37,334 nt of DNA from Lachnospiraceae bacterium (GTDB lineage: Bacteria; Bacillota; Clostridia; Lachnospirales; Lachnospiraceae), in contig JAFYWD010000211.1 of assembly GCA_017558205.1 (NCBI GenBank), forward strand, positions 1 to 37,334, written 5' to 3'. Below, one piece after another: positions 2,751 through 34,074 of the stretch; within the stretch, counting starts at the first letter, position 1, and each line of letters starts with the position of its first letter. The notes beneath the pieces are model-generated. The model saw only the letters and a list, made by a program, of their open reading frames with translations, did not search any database and was not told the DNA's origin. The position numbers and the translations under genes were made by a program.

Positions 2751-4556
2751 ATGAAAAATACAAAATTATATCCTTTTGAAAGGAATCGCTATTATCCGGG
2801 AAAAATGCTGGTATCTGCAGACTTTCAGGCAGAGCAGACCTATTTTAATAATAAAAGAAGGTTTATTAATAACCTGATGTACGGAGCCGGTATTGTTTGC
2901 GGCTGCGGAGTTTTTAATCTGGATGATCTGTCAATTATGGTAGAAAGTGGAGTTGCCGTTGATGGTATGGGAAGAGAGATTATTATTGACAGCTCCGTGG
3001 TAAAAAAATTATCTGCCATTGAAGGCTTTGACTCTCTGCAGACAGAGCATGCTGCCCTTTGTCTTCAGTACAAGGAAGAAGAAGTGCATACGGTATACAG
3101 CATGAATACCTCCGCTGCAGAAGAGGGACGGGAGTATGAGTATAACAGAATCAGTGAAAGCTATCGTCTGTTTTTAATGGATGCCCAGGATGATCCGGAA
3201 GAATACATGATGGAGACAGAATTCCTGACACAGCTGGGACTGCTGTCAGGTGATGATTATGAAGTAAGGATTCTGGTTCCTTCCGGTGTAAGTAAAGGAA
3301 GAAACACAAAGCTGGTACTTGAGGTAGAAAAGCTGTCAGAAAAGGATAAGAGCCTGAGCTATAAAGCAAAGCTTCAGACACCTGTATTTTTATCAGAAAA
3401 TGGGGAGCATGAGCTGGATCTGTGTATAGAAGGAGTACGTCTTTTACAAGGAGAAAAATTAAGAAAAGAATACTGGATGTATGTGGAAAAATGTGAAAAT
3501 GATACTACCAGCCTTGTAGTAAAAAGCGGCAGTGTCTTTGCAGAAATTGAAGGGGAGGAGATAGCTGCACCTACAGGAATTTCCGTAGACGTAATGCTCT
3601 CTGCAGAAAGTCCCAAATCCATTGTAAACAGAGCCATCGGAAGAATGAGTCTGGAAATTAAGAATATGGGAGGGGTGAAGGAATATATCCGTTTAGCAGA
3701 TCTTTTCCTGGTAAGAACAGGAACTGCCTATGTTATTGAGGATATTAAGGAACAAAGCTGTAAGAATTATATTATCGCTCCTGCCCAGGAGAATTTAAGA
3801 AATGAATATCTGGAATTTTTCGAAAAGGACTATGATATTGTAAGGACAAATCATTTGTCAGAAAATGGAGAAAAAGAGAAGGAGACTGCAATAGCCAAGG
3901 AAAGGAAACCGGAGTTTGCTACCGGAACCTTAGAAATTCCTTTAGGAGAAAATGCCAAAAAGGGTGATATCAAATATTCCGGAGAGATTATGCATGGCTT
4001 AGGTACCGGCAATGTCTATGTGGAAATCGGATATGAATATATTACTTCAGATGAAGCAAGAGGAGCAGGGGTTAAAAATACTATTTATGGTAATCCCGAT
4101 CTGTTTAAGGGAGAAGACACCATTGGTGTGGATGCCCAGACAGCAATTAAGGTATTAAATGATAGAGGAAGCTTTATTGTGGCAGCCAAGCTGTTGAAAA
4201 ATGTGGATTCTCTTGTATTAACATACCGCTGGGTAGCAATCCGTTTTCCGTCCGGTAATGATTTGGAAGAGGAAAACAGCTTAAAGGAAATGAGTATATA
4301 TACAGAAACACCCACAGTAGTATTGGGTACGAAAGACAGCCATTATTTTAAGGTGAAATTTAAAAATATGGAACATTGTGGTATTGTCTATGAATTGACC
4401 GAGCCCGGAAGCGGAGAAATTACTACAGACGGTGTATATACAGCTCCCTCCAAGGAAGGTGTATATGAAATCCGTATTTATTGTGCAGAAAAACCCGTAA
4501 TCTGTACTTATGCATATGCCATTGTTAAAAAACAGGAAGAATTAAAAGAAGAATAA
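2751..4556 (+). CDS. CIS-locus conserved protein with N-terminal RYYPGKM-type motif and C-terminal Ig-like domain
   Basis: 601 residues, no signal peptide or membrane segment. The first 60 residues carry the pattern FERNRYYPGKM, then ADFQAEQ.YFN.KRR.INN and a GAGIVCGCGV stretch. I recognise this start from proteins that recur in eCIS and phage-tail-like loci in many phyla, whose biochemical role I do not know. The middle is mixed beta-rich and includes a segment rich in Lys and Glu (about 370-390). The last 80 residues (TTDGVYTAPSKEGVYEI pattern) look like a bacterial Ig-like beta-sandwich. ATG 2751 has an AAAGGGGA site 5-6 bases upstream and follows the promoter at 2648. It could be a baseplate- or cap-associated structural component. 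Membership of the CIS is well supported; the function is not. Confidence 0.7.
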   Translation: MKNTKLYPFERNRYYPGKMLVSADFQAEQTYFNNKRRFINNLMYGAGIVCGCGVFNLDDLSIMVESGVAVDGMGREIIIDSSVVKKLSAIEGFDSLQTEHAALCLQYKEEEVHTVYSMNTSAAEEGREYEYNRISESYRLFLMDAQDDPEEYMMETEFLTQLGLLSGDDYEVRILVPSGVSKGRNTKLVLEVEKLSEKDKSLSYKAKLQTPVFLSENGEHELDLCIEGVRLLQGEKLRKEYWMYVEKCENDTTSLVVKSGSVFAEIEGEEIAAPTGISVDVMLSAESPKSIVNRAIGRMSLEIKNMGGVKEYIRLADLFLVRTGTAYVIEDIKEQSCKNYIIAPAQENLRNEYLEFFEKDYDIVRTNHLSENGEKEKETAIAKERKPEFATGTLEIPLGENAKKGDIKYSGEIMHGLGTGNVYVEIGYEYITSDEARGAGVKNTIYGNPDLFKGEDTIGVDAQTAIKVLNDRGSFIVAAKLLKNVDSLVLTYRWVAIRFPSGNDLEEENSLKEMSIYTETPTVVLGTKDSHYFKVKFKNMEHCGIVYELTEPGSGEITTDGVYTAPSKEGVYEIRIYCAEKPVICTYAYAIVKKQEELKEE

Positions 4557-4615: not shown

Positions 4616-5461
4616 ATGTTTTATCAGTCGAATAAAATGATGCTGGAATGTATCCGTACTGTATTTCAGGGAAAAGTAAATGATGTGTATGTTTGTAGGG
4701 ACAGAAATACCGGTGGAGATACACCCTATACCTTACTGGTAATTAAGGATCATACTATCGCAAGAAAGTACCTGGAGGTATTTGAAAACCGGGAAAAAAG
4801 AATAGGTTCTTCCTATATTGAAAGCTTCTCTGATAATGGACAGCTTTGTATGGTTTTTGAATATAAACAGGAGCGTCCCCTGGAAAACTTTTATATGGGA
4901 GCAGGAATGTCACTGGCTGAAAGTGAAGAAATCTGTATCAGACTGATTTTGCATTGCATGGAGTCCTCTCTTCCGTACCCGATTTTATATTTGCTTTTAG
5001 AACAAAAGCAAATTCATTTGGCAAAGGACCATACAATCTACTGGAGTTATTTTTTAAATCTGGAAAAGCTGGATCAGAATAAAGATGAGAAGGATTGTGT
5101 ACTTCTGTGTGCTGTAATCCTAAAGAAGCTTTTAGAATCAAAAGTTGCATCAAAAGGCTTCGCCTATCGGGTATTAGAAAAGAAAATACAACGTGAGAGC
5201 TATCGTCATTTTGCAGAAGTGTATAAGGATCTTAGAATTTCAGCCACGCCGGCAAAAGAAAAAGGACTGGGCCATAAGCTGTTATCTAAAATCAGAAAAA
5301 AAGAGAATATCTTATTAAGAATGTTTTATACGGTATGTACAATTCTTATTATTTTAGCAGTGGTTTCCCTTGTATCCCATCTGCTGTTTGGAGATATTCC
5401 GTGGCTTAGAGTTATATTTAACGGATTCAAGCAAATTGGATCTGAAAGTTTATTGCAGTAA
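4616..5461 (+). CDS. Kinase-fold-like (pseudokinase-like) single-pass membrane protein
   Basis: About 281 residues from ATG 4616. A TTG at 4610 is also in frame, but AAAGGGA at 4601-4607 sits only 2 bases from it and 8 from the ATG, so I choose ATG. The N-terminal part resembles a degraded protein-kinase N-lobe: a beta-hairpin (VYVCRDRNTGG), a strand with a VAIK-like Lys (TLLVIKD), and a hinge-like VFEY. I find no HRD or DFG motif, so catalysis is unlikely. A basic stretch (about 216-234) precedes one hydrophobic helix (about 238-259), placing the large domain in the cytoplasm and a short tail outside. It heads a five-gene block of membrane or exported proteins inside the CIS operon, 17 bases before the next gene. 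A role as membrane anchor or scaffold is inference; the kinase-fold assignment is tentative. Confidence 0.5.
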   Translation: MFYQSNKMMLECIRTVFQGKVNDVYVCRDRNTGGDTPYTLLVIKDHTIARKYLEVFENREKRIGSSYIESFSDNGQLCMVFEYKQERPLENFYMGAGMSLAESEEICIRLILHCMESSLPYPILYLLLEQKQIHLAKDHTIYWSYFLNLEKLDQNKDEKDCVLLCAVILKKLLESKVASKGFAYRVLEKKIQRESYRHFAEVYKDLRISATPAKEKGLGHKLLSKIRKKENILLRMFYTVCTILIILAVVSLVSHLLFGDIPWLRVIFNGFKQIGSESLLQ

Positions 5462-5478
5462 ACCGGGGAGGAAAACAA

Positions 5479-7926
5479 GTGAGAAAAACAATTCCTGCAA
5501 TATTATCATTTATCTGGCTGGCTGTTGTTGCATGCCTGGCCTTTATGGACGGAAGTGCCTGGAGTCGTCAGGAAAGTATGAATTTATGTCAGGATGGCTT
5601 ACAGGTAGAAAATCGTTTTTATATTATGGACAACCGGGAAAAAGAAGGGGTTATCTATCAAATTGATGAAAGTCATCAGGTGACAGATATGTTTTTAACG
5701 GGAAGCTATAAAGAGAATATTTCCATAGCCAGACTTTCCTATTCAGACAGCTTATATGTATTGGTAGAAGAAGGTGAAGAACATCGGATTATAAAATTGG
5801 ATGAACTTATGACACCTGTAGAAGAAAGTAGAAAAATAATTACCAAGGAAGAGGGAGAAATTTCTTCTTTTCTTGCAGATGATACCGGATTTTATCTGAC
5901 TATGGTTCTGCCTGAAGGTGATCAGGCCGTTACTTACTTTGCAGAAAAAGAGGAAATCATGAGGAGTATTCCGGCTCCCCGGGAAACTGCGGCACTTCAG
6001 GAAGTAACTGAACTTCAGGAAGAGGAAGAGCAGGCTTTTCTTCGTATGGTTAGAATGATAGAAGCCCCGGTGGGTAGAAAAATTGTAGATGCTTCCTTTA
6101 AGGAGGGGGATTATCAGGTTCGCTATGATGATGGCGTGGGAAAAGAGGAGTTTCTGTTAAAAGAAGAAATTTTAGATGCTTATTACGGAAGAAAATTAGA
6201 TTTATCCCAGACCTTGGAATTTCAAAAGGAACAGCTGATTTTTTATCTGGAGCTTTTGGTGGCAGGCTACGCAGTCCTGATTTTAGGAACTATTCTTTTG
6301 AGAAACAGAAACCATATTGTATATACCCTGGTAATGGTAGAATTGGTTCTTTTGGCCATTACTGCTCTTGGAACAGGAATTACTTATCAGGTAGCTGAGG
6401 AAACGGTAATTAACCAAAATAAAAAATTTGGTGTTTATTATTTAAAAGAGTTAAAACGACAAATAGGGCCTAACTACAAAGAATTTATTCAGGAAGAGTC
6501 ATTTTATAATAGTGAAAGCTACTATCAGCTTCTGGAGAAACTGGAAGGCTTTGTAAAAGCTGAAGGGCCGGATGAATTGTTTCATAGTCTGGCAGTAGTC
6601 CGTTTAGAGGATAACAGAGTCATGGTAGCTTCCAACAGTAAAAATAGAGAGCATGTGGCTTATCAGTACAGCACCTCAGTACTTCCCATATTAGAGCAAA
6701 TCAAGGATGGTGGGGATAATGCTGCAATCCAGGTATGGCTGGAGGGGAAAAGCCATTTGGTAATAGCAGTAGCTGATAAAGAAGGCTTGAAGTCACGGTA
6801 CTGCTATGTGGGACTGTTAGAAGCAGATAATTCTGTGGCAAAGGAAGAGGAAGCAGGTCGTTTTATTTATTACGGAAGCATGATTTTCATTGTGGGAAGT
6901 GCTCTATGTATTTTGCTGATTCTTTTCCAGGAAAGAGATTTGAGAAAATTAAACCAAACCATGGTGAAAATGGCGAAGGGTGATTATGAGATTCAAAAAG
7001 AAACAGTACATGGTAAAGATGTGGAAACTATGTGGAACGCATTGTTGGAGATTAAAAAAAGAATTTCCAGAATAAATCATGCAAAGTTTCAGCTGTATGA
7101 ATCCTGTTATCGGTTTGCACCCAAAAATATAGAGAAAATATTAGGAAGAAAGTCTATCACAGAGGTACAAAGCGGAGATGCCATCGAATTATACGGAACC
7201 TTAGCCATGATTAATACCGCTAAAACCTTTTATATGGATGTACCTACCATGCATCAGGTAAACAGCTATATAGAGCTGATGGAAAAACATAAGGAAGACA
7301 GGGAAGTATTTTTCCTGTCAGGAAACAATAATCTGAAGAATATGAAAATGCTTTTTCTTCAGGATTGTCGTGACAGCAGCCGTTTTGGAATTAATTTCAT
7401 GAAGGAATTTCAACAGATGGCAGTTTATGACCGCTTTAAAGCAGGAATTCTTTTACATCATGATCACTATGTTTACGGAGTGGCAGGCAGTGACAGTCAG
7501 TGCTTTTCCTTTCTCTTTTATCAGAAAATGGAGAGGCTGGAAAGACTGGGATATTGGCTGCAGCAGCAGGGAATTAAGCTGGTAATGACAGAAGCTGTAA
7601 AGAACAGGGAAGGTATACATACAGGAGTACGTTACATAGGATATATACTTTTTGAAGGAGAAGAGAAGGTAAATCTTTATGAAGTACTGGATGCCTGTAG
7701 CGAAGAAGAAAGAAAAAAGAAAATTGCATTGGATGCTAAATTTCAAAAGGCTTTGGAATTATTTTATCAATATGATTTTTATCTGGCCAGAAGTACATTT
7801 TCAGAGATTATCAAAGAGAATCCGGAGGATCAGATAGCAAAATGGTATTTATTTACCTGTCAGAAATATTTAAATCAATCATATTCCGGAGAAATAAGCT
7901 TTGAGCTTTGGGAAAAAGAAGAGTAA
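5479..7926 (+). CDS. Polytopic membrane protein with degenerate class III nucleotidyl cyclase domain and TPR-like tail
   Basis: 815 residues from GTG 5479 with a GGGGAGG site 7 bases upstream. Hydrophobic helices lie at about 7-24, 255-275, 281-303 and 462-483, leaving two large outer segments (25-254 and 304-461). A HAMP-like stretch (about 485-535) follows the last helix. Residues about 545-735 match the start of adenylate/guanylate cyclase domains (RFAPKNIEKILGRKSI.EVQ.GD) and end with the cyclase-like EVLDA strand. However, the segment that normally carries the first metal-binding Asp (FSDIR-type) reads AMINTAKT, so it cannot bind metal normally. The last 65 residues resemble a TPR helix pair. 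Family knowledge says active relatives make cAMP or cGMP; here a sensor or scaffold role in the CIS is inferred. Confidence 0.72.
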   Translation: MRKTIPAILSFIWLAVVACLAFMDGSAWSRQESMNLCQDGLQVENRFYIMDNREKEGVIYQIDESHQVTDMFLTGSYKENISIARLSYSDSLYVLVEEGEEHRIIKLDELMTPVEESRKIITKEEGEISSFLADDTGFYLTMVLPEGDQAVTYFAEKEEIMRSIPAPRETAALQEVTELQEEEEQAFLRMVRMIEAPVGRKIVDASFKEGDYQVRYDDGVGKEEFLLKEEILDAYYGRKLDLSQTLEFQKEQLIFYLELLVAGYAVLILGTILLRNRNHIVYTLVMVELVLLAITALGTGITYQVAEETVINQNKKFGVYYLKELKRQIGPNYKEFIQEESFYNSESYYQLLEKLEGFVKAEGPDELFHSLAVVRLEDNRVMVASNSKNREHVAYQYSTSVLPILEQIKDGGDNAAIQVWLEGKSHLVIAVADKEGLKSRYCYVGLLEADNSVAKEEEAGRFIYYGSMIFIVGSALCILLILFQERDLRKLNQTMVKMAKGDYEIQKETVHGKDVETMWNALLEIKKRISRINHAKFQLYESCYRFAPKNIEKILGRKSITEVQSGDAIELYGTLAMINTAKTFYMDVPTMHQVNSYIELMEKHKEDREVFFLSGNNNLKNMKMLFLQDCRDSSRFGINFMKEFQQMAVYDRFKAGILLHHDHYVYGVAGSDSQCFSFLFYQKMERLERLGYWLQQQGIKLVMTEAVKNREGIHTGVRYIGYILFEGEEKVNLYEVLDACSEEERKKKIALDAKFQKALELFYQYDFYLARSTFSEIIKENPEDQIAKWYLFTCQKYLNQSYSGEISFELWEKEE

Positions 7927-7944
7927 TAGAAGGAGGAAGAGATC

Positions 7945-9177
7945 ATGGGGAATAATCTGCTGACGGTTTTATTGGCAACGGCAAAAGCAAAAATCACTCC
8001 GTTAGTAACCAAAGTCAGATTATGGACAAGCTGGAACTTTATACGTACCAGACTGATTGCAGGAATACGTAATTTCTTCGCTTCTATTTTAACTATAAAG
8101 CCCAGGCATAAACGGGACTACTATGAAGTTTTCGGATGGCTGATCAGCAGAAGATTGGTATTTGCAACTATGGTAGTATTAGGTCTGGTAAGTGCCTTCT
8201 ATCTGTATAGTATCAGGCAGTCCTTTGGAGAAAGTAAGTCAATTACCGGGATTCCTACTTATGAGTATGATTCCCTAATGCTGAGATTTACTAAAGGAAA
8301 GGTTAGAATCAAAGGGAAATCAGGCTATTTGGCCTATGAAGGAAATGTACAGTCAGGGGCTGTAAATGGCTTCGGAATTTTGTACTCACCTGATGGAGAT
8401 ATGGTTTATCAGGGGAATTTTGAAAATAATAAATACCAGGGAAATGGAACCAGCTATTATCCTGAAGGAATACAGGAATATACGGGAAGCTTTGAACAGA
8501 ATAAATTTCACGGAATCGGTAAGCTGTACCGTTCTAATGGCAGTCTAGATTATGAGGGAGAGTTTGTCAGTGGAATAAAGGAAGGAAGCGGTAAGCTTTA
8601 TGATAACGGTAATAATCTGGTTTATCAGGGAAGCTTCCGTTCGGACAGGATTCTTTACAGTGAACTGCTGGGTAAAAATACAAATGAGGTCAGTGATTAC
8701 TATACCGGAACAAGAAAGATTTTTGAAAGTGAAGAAGGTATGGCAGTAATCATGGAGGATATCGGCGCCATGTATCTGGCGAAAAGTAATAGTGAGGCTC
8801 TGGATAATACAAATAAGGTAGAGAAGATACTGGTTTTAAATAATACGATAGGAATGGGAACTCATACTTATTCCCAAATGAGTGAACTGGATCAGTTATT
8901 TGAGGAAAAGATTTATGAAGGAAATTCCGTAGTCACTCTGGCAGAAGCTCTGGGAATTAACCGGTTGGCAGACACACAGTATTCACCGCTGAAAAAGGTG
9001 GAAATGAAAATAAACGAAAGCTTTACTGACTATAGTTATGTGGAAGATATGGAGGAGAATTATATTGTATCCATTGATTCCTACTATAAAGACGGGCTGA
9101 TTTATACCTTTGTCAGAGATTTGGAGGAAGAAGGCTTTCTGTTTTATACCATTGAAACAGATAATGAGGAGCAATAA
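7945..9177 (+). CDS. Membrane-anchored MORN-repeat protein
   Basis: 410 residues preceded by a strong AAGGAGG site. A basic, amphipathic N-terminal 70 residues precede one hydrophobic helix at about 71-89; the rest is predicted outside the membrane. Residues about 128-235 hold roughly five MORN-type repeats (YEG.V..G..NGFGILY, YQGNF...KYQGNG, YTGSFEQNKFHGIGKLY, YEGEF..G.KEGSGKLY, YQGSF). MORN repeats form elongated beta-hairpin rods that bind protein or membrane. The C-terminal 170 residues are acidic and unrecognised. The stop codon overlaps the next start by one base (TAATG), implying coupled translation with the exported coiled-coil protein. I infer a structural part of an envelope complex associated with the CIS. 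Confidence 0.75.
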   Translation: MGNNLLTVLLATAKAKITPLVTKVRLWTSWNFIRTRLIAGIRNFFASILTIKPRHKRDYYEVFGWLISRRLVFATMVVLGLVSAFYLYSIRQSFGESKSITGIPTYEYDSLMLRFTKGKVRIKGKSGYLAYEGNVQSGAVNGFGILYSPDGDMVYQGNFENNKYQGNGTSYYPEGIQEYTGSFEQNKFHGIGKLYRSNGSLDYEGEFVSGIKEGSGKLYDNGNNLVYQGSFRSDRILYSELLGKNTNEVSDYYTGTRKIFESEEGMAVIMEDIGAMYLAKSNSEALDNTNKVEKILVLNNTIGMGTHTYSQMSELDQLFEEKIYEGNSVVTLAEALGINRLADTQYSPLKKVEMKINESFTDYSYVEDMEENYIVSIDSYYKDGLIYTFVRDLEEEGFLFYTIETDNEEQ

Positions 9178-11177
9178 TGATAAAAAAGAGGTTATTGGCA
9201 ACAGCCATAATTCTTTTAATGACATCGCTTAGCTTCCCCGTAAAGGCGGCAGACAGCCTTCTTACCAGGACGGCTGCCCAGAAGCTGGCTATTCAAAACA
9301 GCAATGATTATCAGAAGCTGGAAAGCGAACTGGCATTAAAGGAAGTAGAGCTGACACAGGCTGTTAAGAATATTAAATTGAAAAAAAAGAATATGTCTAC
9401 CTTTCGCTGGTCTCCTCTGATTAATTTTAAATTGCCGGAGAAGGCAAACTTGGAAGAGGAATATGAATTTACCTTTAAGCCCATTCAGCTGGAATCAGAA
9501 ATTAATGTATTAAAGCATCAACTGTCTGACCAGAAGCTGGCAGATCAGGAAAAGGTAAATCAGGTATATACCAGGATTGTTGTGGCTGGGAAATATCTGG
9601 AATACTACAAGGAACGGCTGCAGGAGCTGGAAACAAGAACTGAGAGGACGAAGCTGGCTGTAAAAACAGGAAATGCAGCCCAAAGTCATGTGGAAGCCCT
9701 GGAGGAAAAGATTAAGACCATAAAAGAAAAGCAGATTGCTGAGGAAAGCAAGCTGATCGCAGCTAAAAAAGAACTATCAGATATCTGCGATATGGACGTT
9801 ACTACCGGATATCGTTTTGAAGAGGGAATGGCATGGATTAATCTTTCAAGAAGTCAGCTTCCCGGTCTGATTCAAAACACCCTGGATAAGGATGCGTCCT
9901 TTTATGAAACAAGTATGACTGTAGTAACAGAAAAAATATCATTGGAAACAAATTACCGGCTGATGGAAAATCAGTATGGAGATAAAATGAATTATGTTTC
10001 TGACTACGTGAAAACAGCATTAGAAGGACAGAAAATTGACAGTAAGGCATTTAAACAAAAGTATGACGAATTTTTAAAGGCTATTGATGAACCCTGGCAG
10101 GGAAATATAAAGATTTTATTTTTAAAGATTCCCAAGGAATGGTTCAAGGGAGAAATTTCAGGAATTCGATATGTGGAGGATTCCTCCTATTCCCTTTTTG
10201 AGGCAGCCCTCAGCTATTTGGATGCCATACTGGAAAAGGAAAACCAGCAAAAAGAATTGGAAGGCAGGATTGAGTCTGAATATAATAACCTTGTAAGCCT
10301 GAGAAAGGCTTATGATACGGCTCAAAGCAGTCTGAAGAAAAGTAAAAATGAACTGGAAAAAAACGGGATTCTTTACCGCTTGGGAGAAATGAGCCAGGAA
10401 GAGTACCTTTCCCTATTAGACGAGCATGAAGAGCTGCAAATAGAACAGCTGGAGGCTTTGTCGGAGTACAGTAACGGCTTATATGCCTATGACAGACTTA
10501 CCTGCGGGGGGATTACGGAATTATTGATGACAGCCAAGGCGCAGGGTTCTTCCGTAGAAGCAGTTTATGCTCAGGGAGCCTACTATTATCTGGAATCCTT
10601 AATTCAAAATGAAGAGTTTCGTCTCAGTATCAGCCTGCCGGTAGATTTTCCCATTGATATAACGGATTTTGAATTATGGTGTAATAATCGTCAGATAGGA
10701 GAAAGAACCTCTATCGAAGAGAGTCTGCGTCATCTGAAGCTGGCATTATCAGATGTAGAGGAAGTAAAGATTCGTTTTTATTCTGATGATGAATTTATAG
10801 ATGACTGTCTTATCAACCCGGAAAATAACAGTGGTCCCTTGAAAATTATTCAGCAGTATAAGAGCAACAGTAAGACGGGAGCAATCGTAGGCAGCTATAG
10901 CTATACCAATAATAATATTACAGGATTGATTACTCTGAATCTGGAAACAGAACCTATAGAGAATATCGGCTATTACAGAATTTTGAATAAGAATGGTAAG
11001 CCTTTGGGACAGAAGGAAAAGCTTCCTATTAAGCAGGGCTTACAGTATTTGGGACTTCTGGCGGGAAGCTTGGAGGAACTGGAAATAGAGTTTTATGACA
11101 AGGAAGAAAATCTTTTGTACAAAGGTTATTTTGATACAGTGAACAGTAAGCTGAAAAAAGAGGATACAACAGAATGA
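9177..11177 (+). CDS. Exported TolC-like coiled-coil protein
   Basis: 666 residues. A clear Sec signal peptide (KKR, then a hydrophobic core, then VKAA; cleavage near residue 25) is followed by heptad-rich helices. The segment starting RTAAQKLAIQNSNDYQKLE resembles the repeating helix of TolC-family proteins, and I recognise the pattern KLKKKNMSTFRWSPL from TolC-like exported proteins of Lachnospiraceae. Long helices recur at about 100-210 and 340-445. The C-terminal 180 residues form two small beta domains. In Gram-negative bacteria TolC makes an outer-membrane and periplasmic tunnel; this organism appears monoderm, so the fold is probably used as a wall-spanning rod or conduit (inference). 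It overlaps the upstream MORN gene by one base and the downstream gene by four (ATGA). Confidence 0.68.
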   Translation: MIKKRLLATAIILLMTSLSFPVKAADSLLTRTAAQKLAIQNSNDYQKLESELALKEVELTQAVKNIKLKKKNMSTFRWSPLINFKLPEKANLEEEYEFTFKPIQLESEINVLKHQLSDQKLADQEKVNQVYTRIVVAGKYLEYYKERLQELETRTERTKLAVKTGNAAQSHVEALEEKIKTIKEKQIAEESKLIAAKKELSDICDMDVTTGYRFEEGMAWINLSRSQLPGLIQNTLDKDASFYETSMTVVTEKISLETNYRLMENQYGDKMNYVSDYVKTALEGQKIDSKAFKQKYDEFLKAIDEPWQGNIKILFLKIPKEWFKGEISGIRYVEDSSYSLFEAALSYLDAILEKENQQKELEGRIESEYNNLVSLRKAYDTAQSSLKKSKNELEKNGILYRLGEMSQEEYLSLLDEHEELQIEQLEALSEYSNGLYAYDRLTCGGITELLMTAKAQGSSVEAVYAQGAYYYLESLIQNEEFRLSISLPVDFPIDITDFELWCNNRQIGERTSIEESLRHLKLALSDVEEVKIRFYSDDEFIDDCLINPENNSGPLKIIQQYKSNSKTGAIVGSYSYTNNNITGLITLNLETEPIENIGYYRILNKNGKPLGQKEKLPIKQGLQYLGLLAGSLEELEIEFYDKEENLLYKGYFDTVNSKLKKEDTTE

Positions 11178-13735
11178 AAAAATATGGGAAAATGATAGGA
11201 ATACTGACGGCAGCAGCTGTCTGTATATTCCTGGGGATTTTTTCGGGAAGAAAAATCCTGACGGTAATGGGAGAAGAAAAGCCTACAATTACCTTTGGTG
11301 AATTTTCCAAAAAGAACACAATTGAAGATTCTGTACTTTTGATAGGTACTCATTTAATTCATATCCAAAGTATGACAGATGCTTTATATGAAATGGCGGT
11401 AGACAGTGGTTCGGAATCTGAACAAACTATGGTTTATTATAAATCAGAGTTGGCAGATGGCGCCTGGTTTGATATAACCGATGCCTTGGGTCTGGCAGAT
11501 ATTTCTGAGGAAGGAATTGTAGTTACCTCAGAGGATATGAAGGATGTAAAGCTGGAATATTATACCTTTAAGGATGGTATTACCCGCTCCGCCCTTACAG
11601 GCAATCCGATTAATATTTTCAATATCCGGGAGCCTTATGACCTATATCAGCTGGAGGAGCTGGAGCAGTTAAGACAACAGTTTGAACAGCAGTTTAGTGA
11701 GGAAGATACGGGAGTAAAGAAGTATTATTATGATAAGCTGAAGGCGTTTTTTGAGCAGGATGTGAGAAATGATACTACAGCAGAATGCGACAGGCAGTTA
11801 AATGCTTTACAGGAAATTTATATTGGATTACAGACTTCCGATAAAAAAGATTTGGCAGAAATTGTATCCAAGATTATGGGAAAAATAGATGCTAAAAGAA
11901 GGGCAGAAGTATTGTATGCCTTAAGTCAGTCTGAAAATCATTTATTGAATAAATTGCAAGAGCTTTGTACCGGTTCTGAATATTTGAAGGAAGATTATAT
12001 ATTAAAAATAGAGATTCCGGCTGAGAGTACGGAAGATGGTGACTCAGAGGATGGAGAAGAGAATACAGAGGACAAAGAAAAGCAGTATGAATATGAAAAA
12101 GAACAGTTTGTAGAAAACAGCGGAGTTTTGGATGCTATCGCAAATTCACTGCAAAATTGTCAAAACAGCTATACAGAAAATATTGGAAACAGTATTGAAA
12201 AGGGAAGTACGGTAATTAAAAATCTGGAATATGAAAAAACCATGCAGGTAATCAGTCAGCCGGCTTCTTCTGAGGCTGTAATTAGTCAGCTTCAGCTGCT
12301 ATTTAATATTCAGGAAAATGTAGTAAGACAGGAAACAGAAGAATTGCAAATGATCGAGTCTGAGCTTCTTTCCAAGGTGGAAAGCAAATTTAAGGAGGGG
12401 ATCAGTAAGGGAGCCGGAGAGGGATATAAGGTGGCAGTAGCCAACGGTGTCAGTCAGGCAGCAGTGGAACAGACCTTGAATCAGCAAAAAACAGAATTAA
12501 ATACAGTGCTTCAGGAACTGGAATTTGTGATTACGGCACAGACAAAGCGTCAGGCACCCCAGGATGCTTTAAATGGCATTTATGACAGGCTGGATTCCAT
12601 CAGTGGCTTGAAAACTCTGGCAAAAAAGGACGCTTTTCAGACAAAGGCTGTGGAAAGCATAGAAGAATACAGAATATGGCTGACGGAAAGAGCCAGGGCT
12701 ATTATTATGGAAAACCAGGAGCTGGCTTCTCAGATGGATAAGCTGGAGCTGGATAAGGAAGAATTAACGGCTCAGTTACAGCAGGCCTTAGATGAGAATG
12801 ATCTGGCTCTTGCCAAAAAGAAGCAGGCAATGATAGAGCTGTTGGATGAGCAGATGAAGAAAAAGCAGCAGGAGCTGACAAATATTATGGAGGATCCTGA
12901 AAGCTCGGAATCAGACAAGGCGAAGGCAGAAAATCAGTCGGGTTCTGCTACGGTTCTGAATAATATTAATCAGATTAAGCAGGAGGCTTTATCAGCATTA
13001 GCAGAAGGGAAGGAAAATATCAGCGATCAGCTGAATGCCCTGACAGAGCTGGGAGCAGAAGCAGCCTTAAAAGAAATTGCCCAAAAGGCTTCTGAGACAG
13101 GAAAGGAGCAGGTGGCAGAACAGGCAAGCCAGGCAGCAAATGACAGTCAAAACAGTAGCTTATACGGTGCCTTGGAAGGTGGAGGAGCATCCATGGAGGA
13201 ACTTAGGGTAATACAGAAGCTGGAAGAATTTTTCGGAATGGCTTTTGAAGAGCTGGATGGTAAAAAACAGGCAGAGCTGCTTGTGGTGCTGGACTGGCTG
13301 ATAGAGGAGGGCTATATTTCCCTGGAAAGTCTGTTTCTTCGTTACTATGAGGCTGCCAGGGAAAGTCTTCCCGACTTTGATAAAATTAAACGTCAGGAGC
13401 AGGAATATGTCCCCCTGCTTACACTGGCACAGCTGATAGATTATCGCTATGTATTTGAAGATTCCGGGAAGGAAGTAACCCTTTCAAAAGGAAGTAAGGC
13501 TTATAAATTTAAGGCCAACAGCAGTAAAATGGAATGCTACCCTAAGAAGGAAGAAAGCTTAAAGAAAAATGTTCTTTACCAAAAGGATTTATATCTTTAT
13601 GAAGAGGATGCCGGGAATTATTTTGGCTGTCAAATAGAGTATTTGGAAAAAACAGAAAAAGGAATCTGCCTTACAGCCAAGATGTATCGGGAGGCAGAGG
13701 AGTTTTATCAATTATTAAAGGAAGGAGAAGAATAG
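11174..13735 (+). CDS. Exported long coiled-coil protein with C-terminal stalk-like domain
   Basis: 853 residues. The N-terminus is a signal anchor or signal peptide (basic KKYGK, hydrophobic about 7-23). A mixed domain (about 35-150) follows, then a very long Gln/Glu/Lys-rich coiled coil (about 155-700), strongest near 515-570 where E/K/Q heptads dominate. The acidic linker at about 285-305 is rich in Glu and Asp. The C-terminal 120 residues (GKEVTLSKGSKAYKF, then LYLYEEDAGNYFGCQIEYLE) resemble the copper-amine-oxidase N-terminal-like domain often found on Firmicute surface proteins. Its ATG overlaps the TGA of the TolC-like gene, and its stop directly abuts the cap gene, so it is firmly inside the CIS operon. 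Because it appears exported, I do not regard it as the tape measure. Confidence 0.65.
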   Translation: MKKYGKMIGILTAAAVCIFLGIFSGRKILTVMGEEKPTITFGEFSKKNTIEDSVLLIGTHLIHIQSMTDALYEMAVDSGSESEQTMVYYKSELADGAWFDITDALGLADISEEGIVVTSEDMKDVKLEYYTFKDGITRSALTGNPINIFNIREPYDLYQLEELEQLRQQFEQQFSEEDTGVKKYYYDKLKAFFEQDVRNDTTAECDRQLNALQEIYIGLQTSDKKDLAEIVSKIMGKIDAKRRAEVLYALSQSENHLLNKLQELCTGSEYLKEDYILKIEIPAESTEDGDSEDGEENTEDKEKQYEYEKEQFVENSGVLDAIANSLQNCQNSYTENIGNSIEKGSTVIKNLEYEKTMQVISQPASSEAVISQLQLLFNIQENVVRQETEELQMIESELLSKVESKFKEGISKGAGEGYKVAVANGVSQAAVEQTLNQQKTELNTVLQELEFVITAQTKRQAPQDALNGIYDRLDSISGLKTLAKKDAFQTKAVESIEEYRIWLTERARAIIMENQELASQMDKLELDKEELTAQLQQALDENDLALAKKKQAMIELLDEQMKKKQQELTNIMEDPESSESDKAKAENQSGSATVLNNINQIKQEALSALAEGKENISDQLNALTELGAEAALKEIAQKASETGKEQVAEQASQAANDSQNSSLYGALEGGGASMEELRVIQKLEEFFGMAFEELDGKKQAELLVVLDWLIEEGYISLESLFLRYYEAARESLPDFDKIKRQEQEYVPLLTLAQLIDYRYVFEDSGKEVTLSKGSKAYKFKANSSKMECYPKKEESLKKNVLYQKDLYLYEEDAGNYFGCQIEYLEKTEKGICLTAKMYREAEEFYQLLKEGEE

Positions 13736-14326
13736 ATGGCGGATTATCCCATTATAGCAGATGTGAGTGCACATATTGTAAGAACCTTAAGACAAAAAAT
13801 GTGTCCGGAGCCTATTCCTTCTCCGAACAATATAGAAATTTCTTCGCCTGCAGACCAGGATGTAGACTATATCCTTGGACTTTATCTTTATGATATTAGG
13901 GAAGAAAGCGATGTGGTACAGCCACCCTTTTTACAAAGAGGAAGGGTGCAGTTACAAAAGCCGCCAAGACCATATGGTCTATACTATATGGTATTTATTA
14001 ACGGTTCCTCTCAGATGGGTCTGAAGGCACCGGATATACAAAAAATTATCGGAAGGGTAGCTCAGATTGTTAATGATAATAATTCTGTACTTCCCAACCA
14101 GCTGCAGTCATGGTTAGATACCCAGGAACCTCCGATTGTACTGTCTCAGGCGAAGATAAGTCTGGAGGAAAAGGTAAGGGTGTGGCAGGCAATCAATAAA
14201 CCGTATCAGATTAGCCTGTTCTATAAGGCGGCACCTGTATTTCTATCCAGTGAAGTTATTATTGATACTCCAAGAGTAGTGGATGTCAATATCGGACTGC
14301 AGATTGCAGGAGAAGAAGGGAGGTAA
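13736..14326 (+). CDS. Pvc16/DUF4255 family tube cap or terminator protein
   Basis: 196 residues. The whole chain follows the Pvc16 N-terminal (DUF4255) pattern: an ADVSAHIVRTLR-like helix, I.ISSPAD......LGLYLYDI, a PP...LYYMVF strand and the P..LSQAKISLEEK..VW..I segment, ending with PVFLSSEVI. In Afp/PVC particles the corresponding protein caps the distal end of tube and sheath and sets termination. The ATG follows the previous TAG with no gap, and a GGAAGGAG site lies within the end of the upstream gene. This is a cytoplasmic assembly component, and the assignment is firm at family level. Confidence 0.88.
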   Translation: MADYPIIADVSAHIVRTLRQKMCPEPIPSPNNIEISSPADQDVDYILGLYLYDIREESDVVQPPFLQRGRVQLQKPPRPYGLYYMVFINGSSQMGLKAPDIQKIIGRVAQIVNDNNSVLPNQLQSWLDTQEPPIVLSQAKISLEEKVRVWQAINKPYQISLFYKAAPVFLSSEVIIDTPRVVDVNIGLQIAGEEGR

Positions 14327-15469: not shown

Positions 15470-15498
15470 TTATTATGTAATTGAAAGGGGAAAAAAAT

Positions 15499-17205
15499 AT
15501 GGCAGAATATTTTTCACCAGGAGTATATGTGGAAGAATATGATAATTCTCCGCGTAGTATTGAAGGTGTAGGAACCAGTACTGCAGGCTTTATTGGCTTT
15601 GCTGAAAAAGGAAGTGCCCAGGGAGCACCCTTACTGGTAACAAATTTTAAAAGCTTTACAAAACAGTTTGGTGGATTCTTAAGTGAGTTTACTCATGGAG
15701 AATATCGTTATCTTGCCAACAGTGTGGAGCAGTTTTTTGTAAACGGAGGAACAAGATGTTATGTATCCCGTGTTGTACCTGCTGATGCAAAGAAAGCGTC
15801 TGTGAAAGCCGGCATCTTTACTGCAGAAGCTGCAAACGAAGGAAAATGGGGTAACAGAATCCAGATTTCCATGAATACCGTAACAAAAAGAAAACTGCAG
15901 CTGATTGCCAGCAATCAGACAGGTTATGTGGCAAAATCTGTAGAAGGCTTCCGGGAAGGTGATTTAGTAGAAGTAAACGGTGAGTATAACAGAATTGTTA
16001 CGATTTATGATAACTCTGTTACTTTTGAAAATAAATTCAACCAGGAAGTAGTAGATGCCGGTATTATTCCTAAGACAGTACTTTATCTGGTAACCGCTGA
16101 TATGAGTATCCGTTATAACGATGAAGTAGAAAATTATGGGGAAATCAGCTTTAATACAGCATCTCCCAACTATATTACCTCAAGACTGGCTACCAGTGAG
16201 CTGGTTAAGGTTCAGGTAGAACAGATGACAGAAATCGGCAATCCTGTTGAGGCCATTTTAGGAAAAGAAATGACCAGCGGAATGATTTGCCTGGAAGGCG
16301 GATATGACGGTTCCATGAATCAGGTAAATGCAGGAACCTTTATTGGTGTAGATGATGGTCCCGGAAAACGTACAGGTATTCAGTCCTTCTTAGAAAATAC
16401 AACAGTAAGCATGATGGCAATTCCCGGTGTGACAGATCCTGAGGTAATTGTATCCTTAGTGGCACATTGTGAAGGTGTAAAAAGCAGAATTGCAGTTTTT
16501 GATATGCCCAAGGAAATGTATAAGACAAAGGACCTGATTGAATATCGTGGTATCATTGATTCTACTTATGCAGCAATGTATCATCCATGGATTCAGGTAT
16601 TTGACCGTTCTGCCAATAAATCTGACTACATTCCTCCCTCAGGAGCAGTACTTGGAATTTATTCCAGAACAGACAGCAACCGCGGAGTACATAAAGCACC
16701 TGCTAACGAAGTAGTATTCTGTACAGGCTTAAAGACAAATTACACCAAAGGAGAGCAGGATATCCTGAATCCCGAAGGAATTAATCTGATTCGTTCCATT
16801 CCCGGTCAGGGAATCCGCGTTTGGGGAGCAAGAACTGCCAGCAGCAATTCGGCCTTCAAATATGTCAACGTAAGACGTTTATTTATCTATGTGGAAGAAA
16901 GTATCAAAGCAAATACCAACTGGGTTGTATTTGAACCTAACGATCCTACCTTATGGCAGAGAGTAAGTCTTACCATCACCTCCTTCCTGGATGGAATGTG
17001 GAGAACAGGTATGTTGACAGGTAATTCACCTTCAGAGGCTTACTTTGTAGAAATCGGACAGACAACCATGTCCAGAGATGATATTATGAACGGACGTTTA
17101 ATCTGTAATGTAGGTATTGCACCTTCCCGTCCTGCTGAATTTGTAATCTTCAGAGTAACACAGCATACTGCAGAAGCAGGTGGTGGAGATGCCGGAGAGG
17201 AATAG
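15499..17205 (+). CDS. Contractile sheath protein
   Basis: 568 residues from ATG 15499. A TTG at 15481 is in frame, but the GGGGAAA ribosome-binding site lies between the two, so ATG is the start. The N-terminus YFSPGVYVEEYDNSPR.I.GV.TS.AGFIG is the hallmark of phage-tail-like sheath proteins (Afp2-4/Pvc2-4). The C-terminal half holds GVHKAPANE, RSIPGQGIRVWGART and WVVFEPND..LW.RV, which form the conserved sheath core used for subunit interlocking. Only one sheath gene is present, whereas Afp/PVC have several. Contraction of this polymer drives the tube. It is followed after 43 bases by the tube gene. Confidence 0.97.
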   Translation: MAEYFSPGVYVEEYDNSPRSIEGVGTSTAGFIGFAEKGSAQGAPLLVTNFKSFTKQFGGFLSEFTHGEYRYLANSVEQFFVNGGTRCYVSRVVPADAKKASVKAGIFTAEAANEGKWGNRIQISMNTVTKRKLQLIASNQTGYVAKSVEGFREGDLVEVNGEYNRIVTIYDNSVTFENKFNQEVVDAGIIPKTVLYLVTADMSIRYNDEVENYGEISFNTASPNYITSRLATSELVKVQVEQMTEIGNPVEAILGKEMTSGMICLEGGYDGSMNQVNAGTFIGVDDGPGKRTGIQSFLENTTVSMMAIPGVTDPEVIVSLVAHCEGVKSRIAVFDMPKEMYKTKDLIEYRGIIDSTYAAMYHPWIQVFDRSANKSDYIPPSGAVLGIYSRTDSNRGVHKAPANEVVFCTGLKTNYTKGEQDILNPEGINLIRSIPGQGIRVWGARTASSNSAFKYVNVRRLFIYVEESIKANTNWVVFEPNDPTLWQRVSLTITSFLDGMWRTGMLTGNSPSEAYFVEIGQTTMSRDDIMNGRLICNVGIAPSRPAEFVIFRVTQHTAEAGGGDAGEE

Positions 17206-18446: not shown

Positions 18447-19751
18447 ATGAGTGGCGGCAATTATGTAGCATATAATCTGGGGTTAAATCCGGCAGTAAAT
18501 TTTAATTTTATGCTAAGGGTAGAAGGTGTTTTTGATTTGCCCTGTAAAAGTGTCCGTGCCTTTCAAAAAGAAAATGAATATGAATATATTCAGGAGGGCG
18601 GATTAAATGATTATGTACATATGAGAAGAAAGCCCATTTCCAAACCTTTTACCATACAGATAGAAAGATATGTGGGAGTGGATATGCTGGATCCTTTGGC
18701 CAATGGAACGGAGCTGGTGCTTCCTTTAATTCTTTATGTAAACCGTTACAGTGTTTATAAAGAATTTCATCCTGTAAGGACCTATGTATTTTCCGGCTGT
18801 ACCGTAATGTCCAAGGAATATGGGGAGCTGAATGCTGAACAAAGCGGTCTTTTAGTAGAAACTACCACCATTGCTTATCGTGAAATGTATACTCTGGAAA
18901 ATATTGCTACCAGCTTTGTCACTGAAGATACTTGGGAATTCAATGGTACTTCAAAAGAAGGCAGAGGTAAGAGGAAGGCAAATACCGAAGGTCATGGAGA
19001 AAAAGAAAGCAGTAAGGCTGCCATGGCAGAGAAAGCAAAGAAATGGATCTTCAGTGGCGGAAATACCCATAAGGAATTAAGCAGGCAAGAAGAAACAGGG
19101 GAGCCAAAAGATCAGGAAGCTATTCCTGCCTTTATGGGAATCGGTCACAGCAGTAAAAGTGCAGAAGACAGCTATAAAAAAGAGATTAGAAAGGCATCAA
19201 TGCCAAGGGAAAAATACAGCTTTAAAGAAAATTATAAAGAGAATCTTCGAGCCAAGACAGATGAGAATGAGGCAACCATAGAGGAGAGAAGAAAAGAAGC
19301 GAAAAAATGGACATTTTCCGGTGGAAATACGGAAAAAGCAATAAAAGAAAATGAGAAGGAAAACCATCTCATAAGTGATAATGAGCAGCAAACAGGCGTG
19401 CAGGCATCCTCAGGATTTTTGGGAAATAATGCACTCAGTAAGAGTGCAGAATATACAAGAACTCAGGAAGTCAGAAAGAGTCAGATGCCTAATTCAAAAT
19501 ATAAATATAAAGAAGATAAAACGAAAAATAAGCGGGCAGTCATCAATGAAGCAGAGACTTCCAAAGAAACAATGGAAGGAAAAGCAAAAAAATATGATAT
19601 TGTCATGAACACCGGTAAAAGTGCCAAGGGCAGTGACGGTGCCAGAGAAAAAAAGGCATTTGAAAAGCAAGCCAAACGTTGGCCTGATGTATCCAGTGCC
19701 ATGACAGTAGAGAAATTTATGAATACGAAAAAGATGGGTGGCAAACAATAA
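18447..19751 (+). CDS. Second tube-like (gp19-fold) protein with a repetitive, charged C-terminal tail
   Basis: 434 residues. Residues 1-155 are a tube-fold protein of the Afp5-like class (LNPAVNFNFMLRVEGVFDLPCKSV, then PISKPFTIQIERYVG, then LLVETTTIAYREMYTLENI), which typically links tube to baseplate. The remaining 280 residues are polar and probably disordered: AKKW.FSGGNT occurs at 197 and 285 and in decayed form at 380, and SKSAE......EIRK..MP..KY.FKE at 236 and 331. Afp5-class proteins are normally only about 150-170 residues, so the extension is unusual. It could bind the long coiled-coil protein encoded next, fill the tube lumen, or carry cargo; these are inferences. AGGAGAG precedes the ATG. 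Confidence 0.85.
   Translation: MSGGNYVAYNLGLNPAVNFNFMLRVEGVFDLPCKSVRAFQKENEYEYIQEGGLNDYVHMRRKPISKPFTIQIERYVGVDMLDPLANGTELVLPLILYVNRYSVYKEFHPVRTYVFSGCTVMSKEYGELNAEQSGLLVETTTIAYREMYTLENIATSFVTEDTWEFNGTSKEGRGKRKANTEGHGEKESSKAAMAEKAKKWIFSGGNTHKELSRQEETGEPKDQEAIPAFMGIGHSSKSAEDSYKKEIRKASMPREKYSFKENYKENLRAKTDENEATIEERRKEAKKWTFSGGNTEKAIKENEKENHLISDNEQQTGVQASSGFLGNNALSKSAEYTRTQEVRKSQMPNSKYKYKEDKTKNKRAVINEAETSKETMEGKAKKYDIVMNTGKSAKGSDGAREKKAFEKQAKRWPDVSSAMTVEKFMNTKKMGGKQ
19032..19620 (+). repeat. Imperfect tandem protein-coding repeat (about 88-95 codons)
   Basis: Within the tube-like protein, two related units (about 19036-19298 and 19299-19583) share the order AKKW.FSGGNT, then SKSAE, then RK..MP..KY..KE. 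A third, partial unit starts at AKKYDIVMNTGKSAK. Divergence between units is high enough that slippage is unlikely; this looks like an old duplication. Confidence 0.6.
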
Positions 19752-32210: not shown

Positions 32211-32513
32211 ATGAATATTACAGAAAATAAAATTAATGAAACGATTGTATTATCCATTGAGGGAAGAATTGATACCAACAGCAGTACACAGCTGCAGGCA
32301 AAAATTTTACAGTCCTTTCAAAAGGCAAAAAATCTGGAGTTAGATTTTGCACAGGCAGATTATATTACAAGTGCAGGTCTGAGAGCTTTACTGATCGGAC
32401 AAAAAACAGCTGCTTCTAAAGGAGGAACCATGAAGCTGCTTCATGTAAAGCCAATGATTATGAATGTTTTTCAAATGTCCGGATTTGCCAAGATTTTAAC
32501 CATAGAACCATAA
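32211..32513 (+). CDS. STAS-domain anti-sigma-factor antagonist-like protein (SpoIIAA/RsbV-like)
   Basis: 100 residues, a single STAS domain. ENKINETIVLSIEGRIDTNSS and LELDFAQADYITSAGLRALL match anti-anti-sigma proteins. Ser54 (in YITSAGLRAL) is at the position phosphorylated by SpoIIAB/RsbW-type kinases in relatives, so switching is possible. It is co-transcribed with an ABC ATPase and an RsbW-like ATPase; the latter starts only 660 bases away. In the canonical system it would release a sigma factor when dephosphorylated, but neither a sigma factor nor a PP2C phosphatase gene is in the window. A CIS-linked switch controlling assembly or firing is inference. Confidence 0.88.
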   Translation: MNITENKINETIVLSIEGRIDTNSSTQLQAKILQSFQKAKNLELDFAQADYITSAGLRALLIGQKTAASKGGTMKLLHVKPMIMNVFQMSGFAKILTIEP

Positions 32514-32520
32514 CAGATTT

Positions 32521-33201
32521 ATGAAAATAGTTTTTGAAAACGTGACCAAGAAATATGCGGACACAGAGACTGTAGTTTTAAATAATTTTAATATGACCGT
32601 TGAAAAAGGAGAGTTTGTCCTTTTAACAGGAAGAAGCGGTATTGGCAAAAGTACTGTTCTCAGATTACTGCTTCGGGAAATTCTACCTGAAAAAGGAGAG
32701 ATTAAAGTAGGAGATGATTCCCTGACAGATATGAAGGGAAGCAGAATTCCTTATTACAGAAGAAAGCTGGGAGTGGTTTTCCAAAATTCTCCTCTGATAG
32801 AGACAAAAAATGTATTCGAAAATATTTGTCTTGCCAGAGAGATTATTGGTGGAAGAAAAAAGGACAGCAGAAAAGTAGTGACTTCCATTTGTTCCTTTTT
32901 AGGAATTGCCAATCTGTATAAAAGATATCCTTCCCAATTATCCGGCGGTCAGAAGCAAAAGGTATGTCTTGCCAGAGCTTTGGTAAATTATCCGGATTTG
33001 ATACTGGCAGATGAGCCTACAGGAAATCTTTCCTATGAAGAGTCAAAGGAAATCATGAAATTATTTGAATTGATACATAAACAGGGGATTACGGTACTGA
33101 TAGCAACCCATGATAAGGAAAGCATGGGGCAGATTTCCTACCGCGAAATTTTACTGGAAGAGGAGGCGGATAATGAAAGAATTAAAATTGAAAGCAATTG
33201 A
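32521..33201 (+). CDS. ABC transporter ATP-binding protein, FtsE/LolD-like
   Basis: 226 residues. It has a complete ABC cassette: Walker A GRSGIGKST (37-45), Q-loop VFQN (Q88), signature LSGGQ (140-144), Walker B LILADE (160-165) and an ATHD H-loop. The sequence is closest in feel to FtsE/LolD/MacB-type ATPases that work with FtsX-like permeases, but no permease is present in the window. There is no clear ribosome-binding site in the 7 bases after the STAS stop, so translation is probably coupled. Its end overlaps the next gene by 29 bases. Its pairing with STAS and RsbW-like partners is unusual. It could energise a membrane process linked to the CIS, or serve a permease encoded elsewhere. 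Confidence 0.88.
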   Translation: MKIVFENVTKKYADTETVVLNNFNMTVEKGEFVLLTGRSGIGKSTVLRLLLREILPEKGEIKVGDDSLTDMKGSRIPYYRRKLGVVFQNSPLIETKNVFENICLAREIIGGRKKDSRKVVTSICSFLGIANLYKRYPSQLSGGQKQKVCLARALVNYPDLILADEPTGNLSYEESKEIMKLFELIHKQGITVLIATHDKESMGQISYREILLEEEADNERIKIESN

Positions 33202-33577
33202 TGAAAATTTAAGTGTAGTGCTGGATACGACAGAAGCTTTTTTAGAGGGACAATGTTCGGAAGAAATTAAAAATGAAATTTTAATTTCCATTGATGAGCT
33301 GTTTATCAATATTGCACATTATGCTTATGGGGCAGAAGAGGGAGAGGCATATATAAAGCTGGAAATGAAGGAGGAGCCTAAAAGTATTAAGATTACTTTA
33401 ATGGACTGGGGGATTCCCTTCGATCCCTTTGCAAAAGAAGACCCCGATATTGATCTTACCTTAGAGGAAAGAAAAATCGGGGGATTGGGTATCTTTATGG
33501 TGAAAGACTATATGGATCAGGTAAATTATGAATATCGGGATGGTTCTAATATTGTAACTCTGGTGAAAAAATTATAG
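33173..33577 (+). CDS. RsbW/SpoIIAB-like anti-sigma serine kinase family ATPase
   Basis: 134 residues from ATG 33173. A longer in-frame start at 33110 lacks a site and would overlap the ABC gene deeply, whereas AGGAGG lies just before 33173. It is a HATPase_c_2 domain: N-box SIDELFINIAHYAYG (Glu42, Asn46), G1 box MDWGIPFDP (Asp78, Gly80) and G2 box GGLGIFMVK (103-111), all kept, so ATP binding is expected. Family members phosphorylate a STAS partner and sequester a sigma factor; here the obvious partner is the STAS protein at 32211. No sigma factor is nearby, so the output may be another protein, possibly a CIS component. It is the last plus-strand gene of the main operon. Confidence 0.88.
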   Translation: MKELKLKAIDENLSVVLDTTEAFLEGQCSEEIKNEILISIDELFINIAHYAYGAEEGEAYIKLEMKEEPKSIKITLMDWGIPFDPFAKEDPDIDLTLEERKIGGLGIFMVKDYMDQVNYEYRDGSNIVTLVKKL

Positions 33578-33618: not shown

Positions 33619-34062
33619 TTAGTAGGGATAATCCTCCTTAGAGATTTCCTCAAGCTGTAAATATTGATTAGAACAGTAGCCCTCTAAGTTATCTGTTTTA
33701 ATTTTTGACCATTCTTCCCCTTTTTCTAAAACATAGCCGGAGGAAGAGGGGGGAAGAGTTGCGATAATAGCAGCTTCCATTCCCGGAGCAGTTCTTACAT
33801 TTAAAGGTGTAAGGATATTGGTAGTGAGAAATTTATAGTAGACAACAGAAGACTTAGTAGAAGAGGTTTGTAAATCTTCGGCAATTTCTTCTACAGGATT
33901 TTCAATAATTATATTCTTTTCTGCGGCTTCAATGGAAGAAGGAGAGAAGACAGAGCTTTGTTTCTTTCCGCTTCCTATAAAAAAAAGCAGGCCGGCAGCG
34001 GCAATACCGATAGTCGTATAAAGAACAAGGGAAATTAAAATGGTCATTTGTTTTTTACTCAT
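33619..34062 (-). CDS. Membrane-anchored bacterial SH3-domain protein
   Basis: 147 residues, transcribed leftwards. The N-terminal helix (about 7-30) is a signal anchor. An acidic or polar linker (about 31-80) leads to an SH3_3-type domain (about 82-140) with LNVRTAPGMEAAIIATLPP and WSKIK...LEGYCSNQYLQ. Bacterial SH3 domains commonly bind peptidoglycan, so it is likely outside the membrane at the wall. A strong AGGAGGAAG site (34068-34076) overlaps the stop of the upstream histidine-kinase-like gene, so the two form a coupled pair. It converges on the CIS operon with a 41-base gap and no clear terminator. A role in sensing or wall docking is inferred. Confidence 0.82.
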   Translation of the reverse strand: MSKKQMTILISLVLYTTIGIAAAGLLFFIGSGKKQSSVFSPSSIEAAEKNIIIENPVEEIAEDLQTSSTKSSVVYYKFLTTNILTPLNVRTAPGMEAAIIATLPPSSSGYVLEKGEEWSKIKTDNLEGYCSNQYLQLEEISKEDYPY

Positions 34063-34074
34063 AGATTCTTCCTC

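Follow-up and report, generated by a model that had tools for sequence, protein, structure and literature searches.

The window, a stretch of 37,334 nucleotides of Lachnospiraceae DNA, carries one gene cluster for a contractile injection system (CIS) of the Afp/PVC type. The cluster encodes matches over the Pfam cut-off to sheath, CIS_tube, Pvc16_N, Phage_base_V and Tail_P2_I, which bear out an earlier note's reading of the locus as a CIS, and to AAA. It also holds a DUF4280 match (Pfam), two baseplate assembly matches (TIGR02243), both below the cut-off, and one protein outside the Pfam scan that we take to be gp25. The contractile sheath gene lies on the forward strand at 15481..17205 (Phage_sheath_1, E = 1.7e-17; Phage_sheath_1C, E = 4.9e-16), and the draft genome from which the window comes (2.68 Mb in 295 contigs, 89% complete) contains one Phage_sheath_1 match. 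A tube-like protein with a TIGR02241-type start (18447-19751) has 434 residues, compared to 613, 555 and 520 in the loci L072, L074 and L075. The window ends inside a gene for a second AAA ATPase (35230-37332) related to the first AAA gene of the operon.

Five consecutive open reading frames occupy positions 4616-13735, as the earlier note had claimed, and are followed at 13736..14326 by the gene for a Pvc16-like terminal cap (Pvc16_N, E = 1.3e-28). All lie on the forward strand. The five encode a pseudokinase with a transmembrane (TM) helix (A, 4616..5461, ATG start), a four-TM receptor with a cyclase-like domain (B, 5479..7926, GTG start), a TM protein with MORN repeats (C, 7945..9177), an exported protein of the TolC/OEP family (D, 9177..11177) and an exported coiled-coil protein (E, 11174..13735). 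The genes had been described as mostly overlapping; this holds from C onward, where C and D share 1 bp (TAATG), D and E share 4 bp (ATGA) and E directly abuts the cap gene (0 bp), but gaps of 17 and 18 bp separate A from B and B from C. Membrane or export signals, likewise claimed for all five products, appear across homologues as segments in a plain hydropathy scan, which is not a signal-peptide predictor. In the closest relative, L002 from sheep rectum, the five proteins are 58-72% identical to those of the window and the sheath is 89% identical. The relatives found with C as the query are metagenome-assembled genomes, mostly of Lachnospiraceae.

The gene preceding A (2751..4556, forward strand) encodes a protein of 601 residues. 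It is not the generic 'N-terminal CIS gene' of the earlier description: it matches CIS13_fam (NCBIfam, E = 1.6e-23), the family of Cis13 baseplate foot/fibre proteins. The match spans residues 8-156 and scores 83.6 bits against a cut-off of 370; because it stays below the cut-off and covers the N-terminal quarter only, just the N-terminal part resembles known Cis13, and we call the protein Cis13-like. Its alignment comprises 25 homologues. A PDB profile search returned nothing at E ≤ 0.01, and the Cis13-like, D and E proteins found no match in PHROGs at E ≤ 0.001. The constant pairing with A had previously been overlooked: the Cis13-like gene lies immediately 5' of A in 28 of the 28 loci that contain both, in two operon layouts, with some of these loci near-identical. 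Adjacency counts omit rows with genes that were missed by the ORF caller and seen by tblastn (Cis13 and A in L009, C in L010 and L031); the near-identical loci L008 and L013 are not independent of each other, nor are L005 and L006.

A consists of a cytoplasmic pseudokinase domain (residues ~1-214), one TM helix (~232-258) and a short outside tail of ~23 residues that carries a conserved IG(T) motif. The hydropathy scan finds the strong C-terminal segment in all 28 members, 13 of which have another, weaker segment within the kinase domain. The domain has a protein kinase fold, but the HRD and DFG triplets are missing from every one of the 28 members, and the β3 lysine is kept in 17. This confirms the earlier pseudokinase call and led us to reject A as an active kinase. 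A similar arrangement, a cytoplasmic pseudokinase of ~204 residues followed by one TM helix, is part of a secretion machine in YukC/EssB of T7SSb (PMC9600267, in the portion of that paper available); the outside domain of YukC has 141 residues compared to the ~23 of A. The EssB/YukC family is absent from the Pfam matches of the 28 members at E ≤ 0.1, and EssB structures are absent from the Foldseek/VIA matches listed for A, the latter excluding nothing. With no family match and so short a tail, A is not assigned to EssB/YukC.

B combines four TM segments, a HAMP-like linker, a class III cyclase-like domain and a weakly TPR-like tail. Four hydrophobic segments were found in 17 of 24 members, three in 3 and two in 4 (hydropathy scan). 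Pfam matches are to HAMP (6/24), Guanylate_cyc (3/24, best E = 1.7e-6), TPR_16 (2/24) and, weakly, single-Cache (1/24), with none for the window's own B; B also matches a photoactivated cyclase profile (E = 4.8e-4). The domain matches agree with the earlier cyclase-like call, and the domain is degenerate. At the two alignment positions that we take to be the metal-binding sites, the first Asp is present in 1 of 24 members, the second in 2 and both in none, so B does not qualify as a class III cyclase and an active cyclase was rejected. B-like proteins encoded at G125:C30 and G056:C8 (frames of 921 and 906 residues) represent a possible source family for B. C has an N-terminus of ~70 residues, one TM helix, MORN repeats (Pfam MORN, E = 7e-15) and a further domain. 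The helix is found in 21 of 21 members (hydropathy scan), in line with the membrane MORN protein proposed before, and the positive-inside rule suggests that both the repeats and the further domain lie outside.

D matches the OEP profile, adopts the TolC fold and ends in β-sandwich domains. The earlier note had it as an exported coiled-coil protein; an N-terminal hydrophobic segment in 22 of 24 members (hydropathy scan) supports the export, but the TolC-like nature had escaped notice. Residues 78-84 and 309-335, which lie between helices and bear on a possible outer-membrane β-barrel, have low confidence in the structure model. A search that was positive in 7 of 14 known control genomes found no Omp85 in 12 genomes that carry D (among them the window's own, but not G006; some are incomplete drafts), so D seems to work without outer-membrane insertion machinery. 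Proteins of the TolC family do occur in monoderm Firmicutes, which have no outer membrane, and many of them are encoded in efflux-pump operons (PMC8809574, as far as its available text goes); D differs in lying in a CIS operon and in having the extra C-terminal β domains. E is a coiled-coil protein with an N-terminal export or anchor segment (18 of 19 members, hydropathy scan) and a C-terminal Cu_amine_oxidN1-like domain recognized in 8 of 19 members (best E = 2.1e-5); a PDB profile search gave three weak, unrelated matches only. C directly precedes D in 21/21 loci and E precedes Pvc16 in 15/15; D is followed directly by E in 17/18, with a gap of 315 bp in the other locus. A tandem pair of E-like genes (907 and 1139 residues) is present at L028:12278-18421 (G180).

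Two operon layouts were found. The window's lineage has Cis13-A-(B)-C-D-(E) running into Pvc16, which precedes the sheath, except in G085 and G104, where Pvc16 comes after the baseplate genes. In a more distant lineage, the baseplate genes come before Cis13-A-C, which leads into Pvc16; D and E are missing, and B, where found, lies further on, with one locus (G086, L033) keeping it between A and C. Because the layouts differ in B, D and E, the minimal unit of the module, judged by gene order, is Cis13-A-C. Three loci (G085, G104 and G176) lack B but are otherwise intact, so B is no universal trigger. The absence of D from the distant lineage, and of E also from the five loci L008, L009, L010, L012 and L013, indicates that a wall extension is no general requirement. 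Mean pairwise identity across nine loci is.47 for A,.46 for C,.42 for D,.34 for E and.30 for B, compared to.75 for the sheath and.79 for the cap; faster divergence of the module than of the particle would be expected if the module faces variable envelopes.

To what extent the module travels with the injector was read from 200 genomes of the family, 21 with a sheath at E ≤ 1e-10 and 179 without. Strong A matches (E ≤ 8e-41) occur in 19 of the 200, comprising 19 of the 21 sheath-positive and none of the 179 sheath-negative genomes (Fisher p ~1e-24), making A a linked membrane protein conserved with the CIS. The two sheath-positive genomes without A are G006, whose contig ends after D, and G046, whose solitary sheath has no CIS neighbours. 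The G046 sheath (L041:4918-6642) has no other CIS gene in the 30 kb around it, in a single-contig genome of 6.9 Mb with 8% estimated contamination. Nine sheath-negative genomes have weak A matches (E = 7e-8 to 9e-4, frames of 304-618 residues), which we take to be ordinary kinases. The same 11 genomes, all sheath-positive, contain both D (E ≤ 1e-250) and E (E ≤ 1e-100); G046 has one weak D match distant from its sheath, and the 179 sheath-negative genomes contain no D at E ≤ 1e-5 and no E at E ≤ 1e-10. C matches 30 genomes: it is CIS-linked in 19 and unlinked in one (G046), and the other 10, all sheath-negative, have weaker matches (E = 4e-15 to 2.5e-4) that we read as generic MORN proteins. 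B at E ≤ 1e-20 is found in 17 genomes, 16 of them sheath-positive; in G056 the match lies on a different contig from the CIS.

The earlier note had held that its reading would suffer if the five genes regularly occurred away from any CIS or if the CIS of close relatives lacked them. Regular occurrence elsewhere was not observed, strong A, D and E being confined to sheath-positive genomes; the exception is B in the sheath-negative G125. The set as a whole is not missing from relatives, as Cis13-A-C is present in 19 of the 21 sheath-positive genomes, but the five are not indivisible, given the losses of B, of E and of D with E. Co-occurrence and gene order across genera reject a chance neighbourhood, and a defence island was rejected because seven window proteins gave no PADLOC match at E ≤ 0.01.

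The association extends beyond this sample. Among 14 loci found through C in a collection of species genomes, 11 include a sheath or Pvc16 gene, two have only the Cis13-like gene with the module and one is a 5-kb contig with module genes only. In a sample of 291 genomes of the class, strong A (E ≤ 3e-80) occurs in five genomes, all sheath-positive, of which G000, G022 and G180 also belong to the family sample. Six class genomes with weak A have no CIS gene in the stretches around it, two of these being contigs under 5 kb. The locus reading in the class sample left out five distant sheath matches (G334, G399, G417, G437 and G439). G462, from another family, has the order Cis13-A-B-C-(D-profile match)-Pvc16; the A frame called there stops short of any membrane segment, and D is represented by a short profile match (E = 5e-9) that Pfam does not support. 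G224 lacks A and encodes B and C on the other strand, a few kb at most from the Cis13-like gene, and G397 has no linked module on a contig that ends inside the CIS.

Downstream, at 32211..33577 on the forward strand, are genes for a STAS protein (TIGR00377, E = 3.1e-18, over the cut-off), an FtsE-like ABC ATPase without a permease (FtsE, E = 2.1e-65) and an RsbW-like HATPase (RsbW, E = 1.8e-9), the latter two matches being below the cut-off. The cassette resembles an RsbU-V-W partner switch. A STAS gene comes after the baseplate genes in six of six relatives read and is present in G104, with no match in G085 or the distant-lineage loci; four of the six have the FtsE-like and two the RsbW-like ATPase, and in G149 the cassette has a dCache-HAMP-SpoIIE phosphatase as its neighbour. 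The cassette closes the CIS operon, a position that might link firing and wall opening. On the opposite strand behind the operon (33619-34920) are a histidine-kinase-type ATPase and a small protein that is hydrophobic near its N-terminus; at the matching place, L072 encodes an SH3_3-like protein (below the cut-off).

We favour, with moderate confidence, the interpretation that these monoderm Lachnospiraceae retain their CIS in the cell and that the module serves as its platform for membrane docking and triggering. The envelope-spanning anchor or firing platform suggested in the earlier note is thereby partly supported and stays a proposal. The module probably docks the injector to the envelope of the producing cell; the CIS would then be a cell-mounted weapon and not a lysis-released one. 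The particle would assemble in the cytoplasm, where Cis13-like feet at the baseplate rim would bind the pseudokinase domain of A; the TM helix of A, together with C, would then hold the baseplate at the membrane. B, where present, may sense an outside signal and relay it to the docked baseplate by conformational, not catalytic, means. The lack of HRD and DFG in A and of both metal-binding Asp in B fits scaffolding or signal relay and not catalysis. The overall anatomy fits docking: a baseplate foot is always encoded beside a membrane pseudokinase, C is another membrane protein, and neither A nor B shows signs of enzymatic activity. In the window's lineage, D and E might carry the assembly into the thick wall or across it, as guide, wall-opener or surface sensor. 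A simple conduit is an unlikely role for D, because a CIS tube would not fit through a TolC trimer; guide, wall-opener or surface sensor are as likely. The STAS/RsbW/FtsE-like cassette may control expression or wall opening. A bolder version, in which an Afp-type CIS on a pseudokinase/MORN base, fired through a degenerate receptor, forms a wall-crossing contractile secretion system of monoderms, with a TolC-derived wall extension in the absence of an outer membrane and wall opening by the FtsE-like ATPase, is tentative, and we are inclined to doubt it.

Three other explanations were weighed against docking. The CIS could be free in the cytoplasm as in Streptomyces, with the membrane proteins recruiting it under stress and firing it into the cell's own envelope as a self-triggered death switch, not a launcher directed at neighbouring cells. 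Such a role is suggested by CisA, a one-pass membrane protein that is needed for firing in a monoderm and is encoded at the usual fibre place (PMC12237407, in the part of the text available), and by the RsbW/STAS stress-type partner switching in the same operon; but the exported TolC-like D and E look made for the outer face of the membrane or the wall, where self-killing would have no obvious need of them, and we consider this explanation unlikely. It is quite improbable that A, B and C never bind the particle and only relay an envelope signal for its expression, assembly or release. Although B has the anatomy of a receptor, with HAMP in 6/24 members, and the downstream cassette is a partner switch to which G149 adds its phosphatase, the pairing that varies least is that of A and the structural Cis13-like gene (28/28), whereas the receptor is the dispensable part.

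D and E, perhaps with the FtsE-like ATPase, could also be a separate tripartite-type exporter or an adhesin riding in the CIS operon. Such an origin would suit the TolC-like proteins of monoderm Firmicutes, many of which reside in pump operons (PMC8809574, within the same available text), and the absence of D from many CIS loci. It conflicts with the Pfam scan, in which no adaptor or ABC permease family was found among 20 window proteins, with the complete absence of D and E from the sheath-negative family genomes at the thresholds given above, and with the invariant C-D junction. We give this explanation the least weight.

Several described systems share features with the docked CIS that we propose; the comparisons refer to the available parts of the cited papers. 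The haloarchaeal membrane-bound T6SS likewise has a conserved linked membrane protein in its CIS cluster, Hbor_38620, a putative anchor, and its Cis12 and Cis13 are proposed as membrane contacts (PMC11566945). Hbor_38620, however, has six TM helices and a cytoplasmic domain of 150 residues, unlike the pseudokinase, MORN, exported TolC-like and coiled-coil proteins of the window. In T6SS subtype iv and Bacteroidales CIS, the Cis13 equivalent Aasi_0556, likened here by description only, is proposed to help anchor the particle to the cell's own inner membrane, but the hosts are diderm and that text describes no such module (PMC12210884). Both cases make Cis13 plausible as a membrane contact. The Streptomyces CIS also has a monoderm host and a cluster-encoded membrane protein, CisA, that is required for firing (PMC12237407), which shows that firing in a monoderm can depend on a membrane protein. 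CisA differs, by description, in that most of its cytoplasmic part is unstructured and its outside domain is substrate-binding-like, and the available description of that system mentions no kinase, MORN, cyclase or TolC-like parts. Openly licensed papers yielded nothing on contractile injection combined with a pseudokinase or with MORN and nothing on phage tail-like systems in gut Clostridia; for CIS in Lachnospiraceae they gave a mention in a reference list only.

The anchored CIS of the papers cited here are from diderms and archaea, and the Streptomyces system is tied to the death of its own cell. The injector of the window has recruited two degenerate enzyme domains, a pseudokinase and a pseudocyclase, and a TolC-family protein. 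In gut Lachnospiraceae, the module provides conserved candidates for an anchor (A, C and the Cis13-like protein), a trigger (B) and wall passage (D and E), and with these in hand the question of a cell-mounted CIS in monoderms becomes directly testable.
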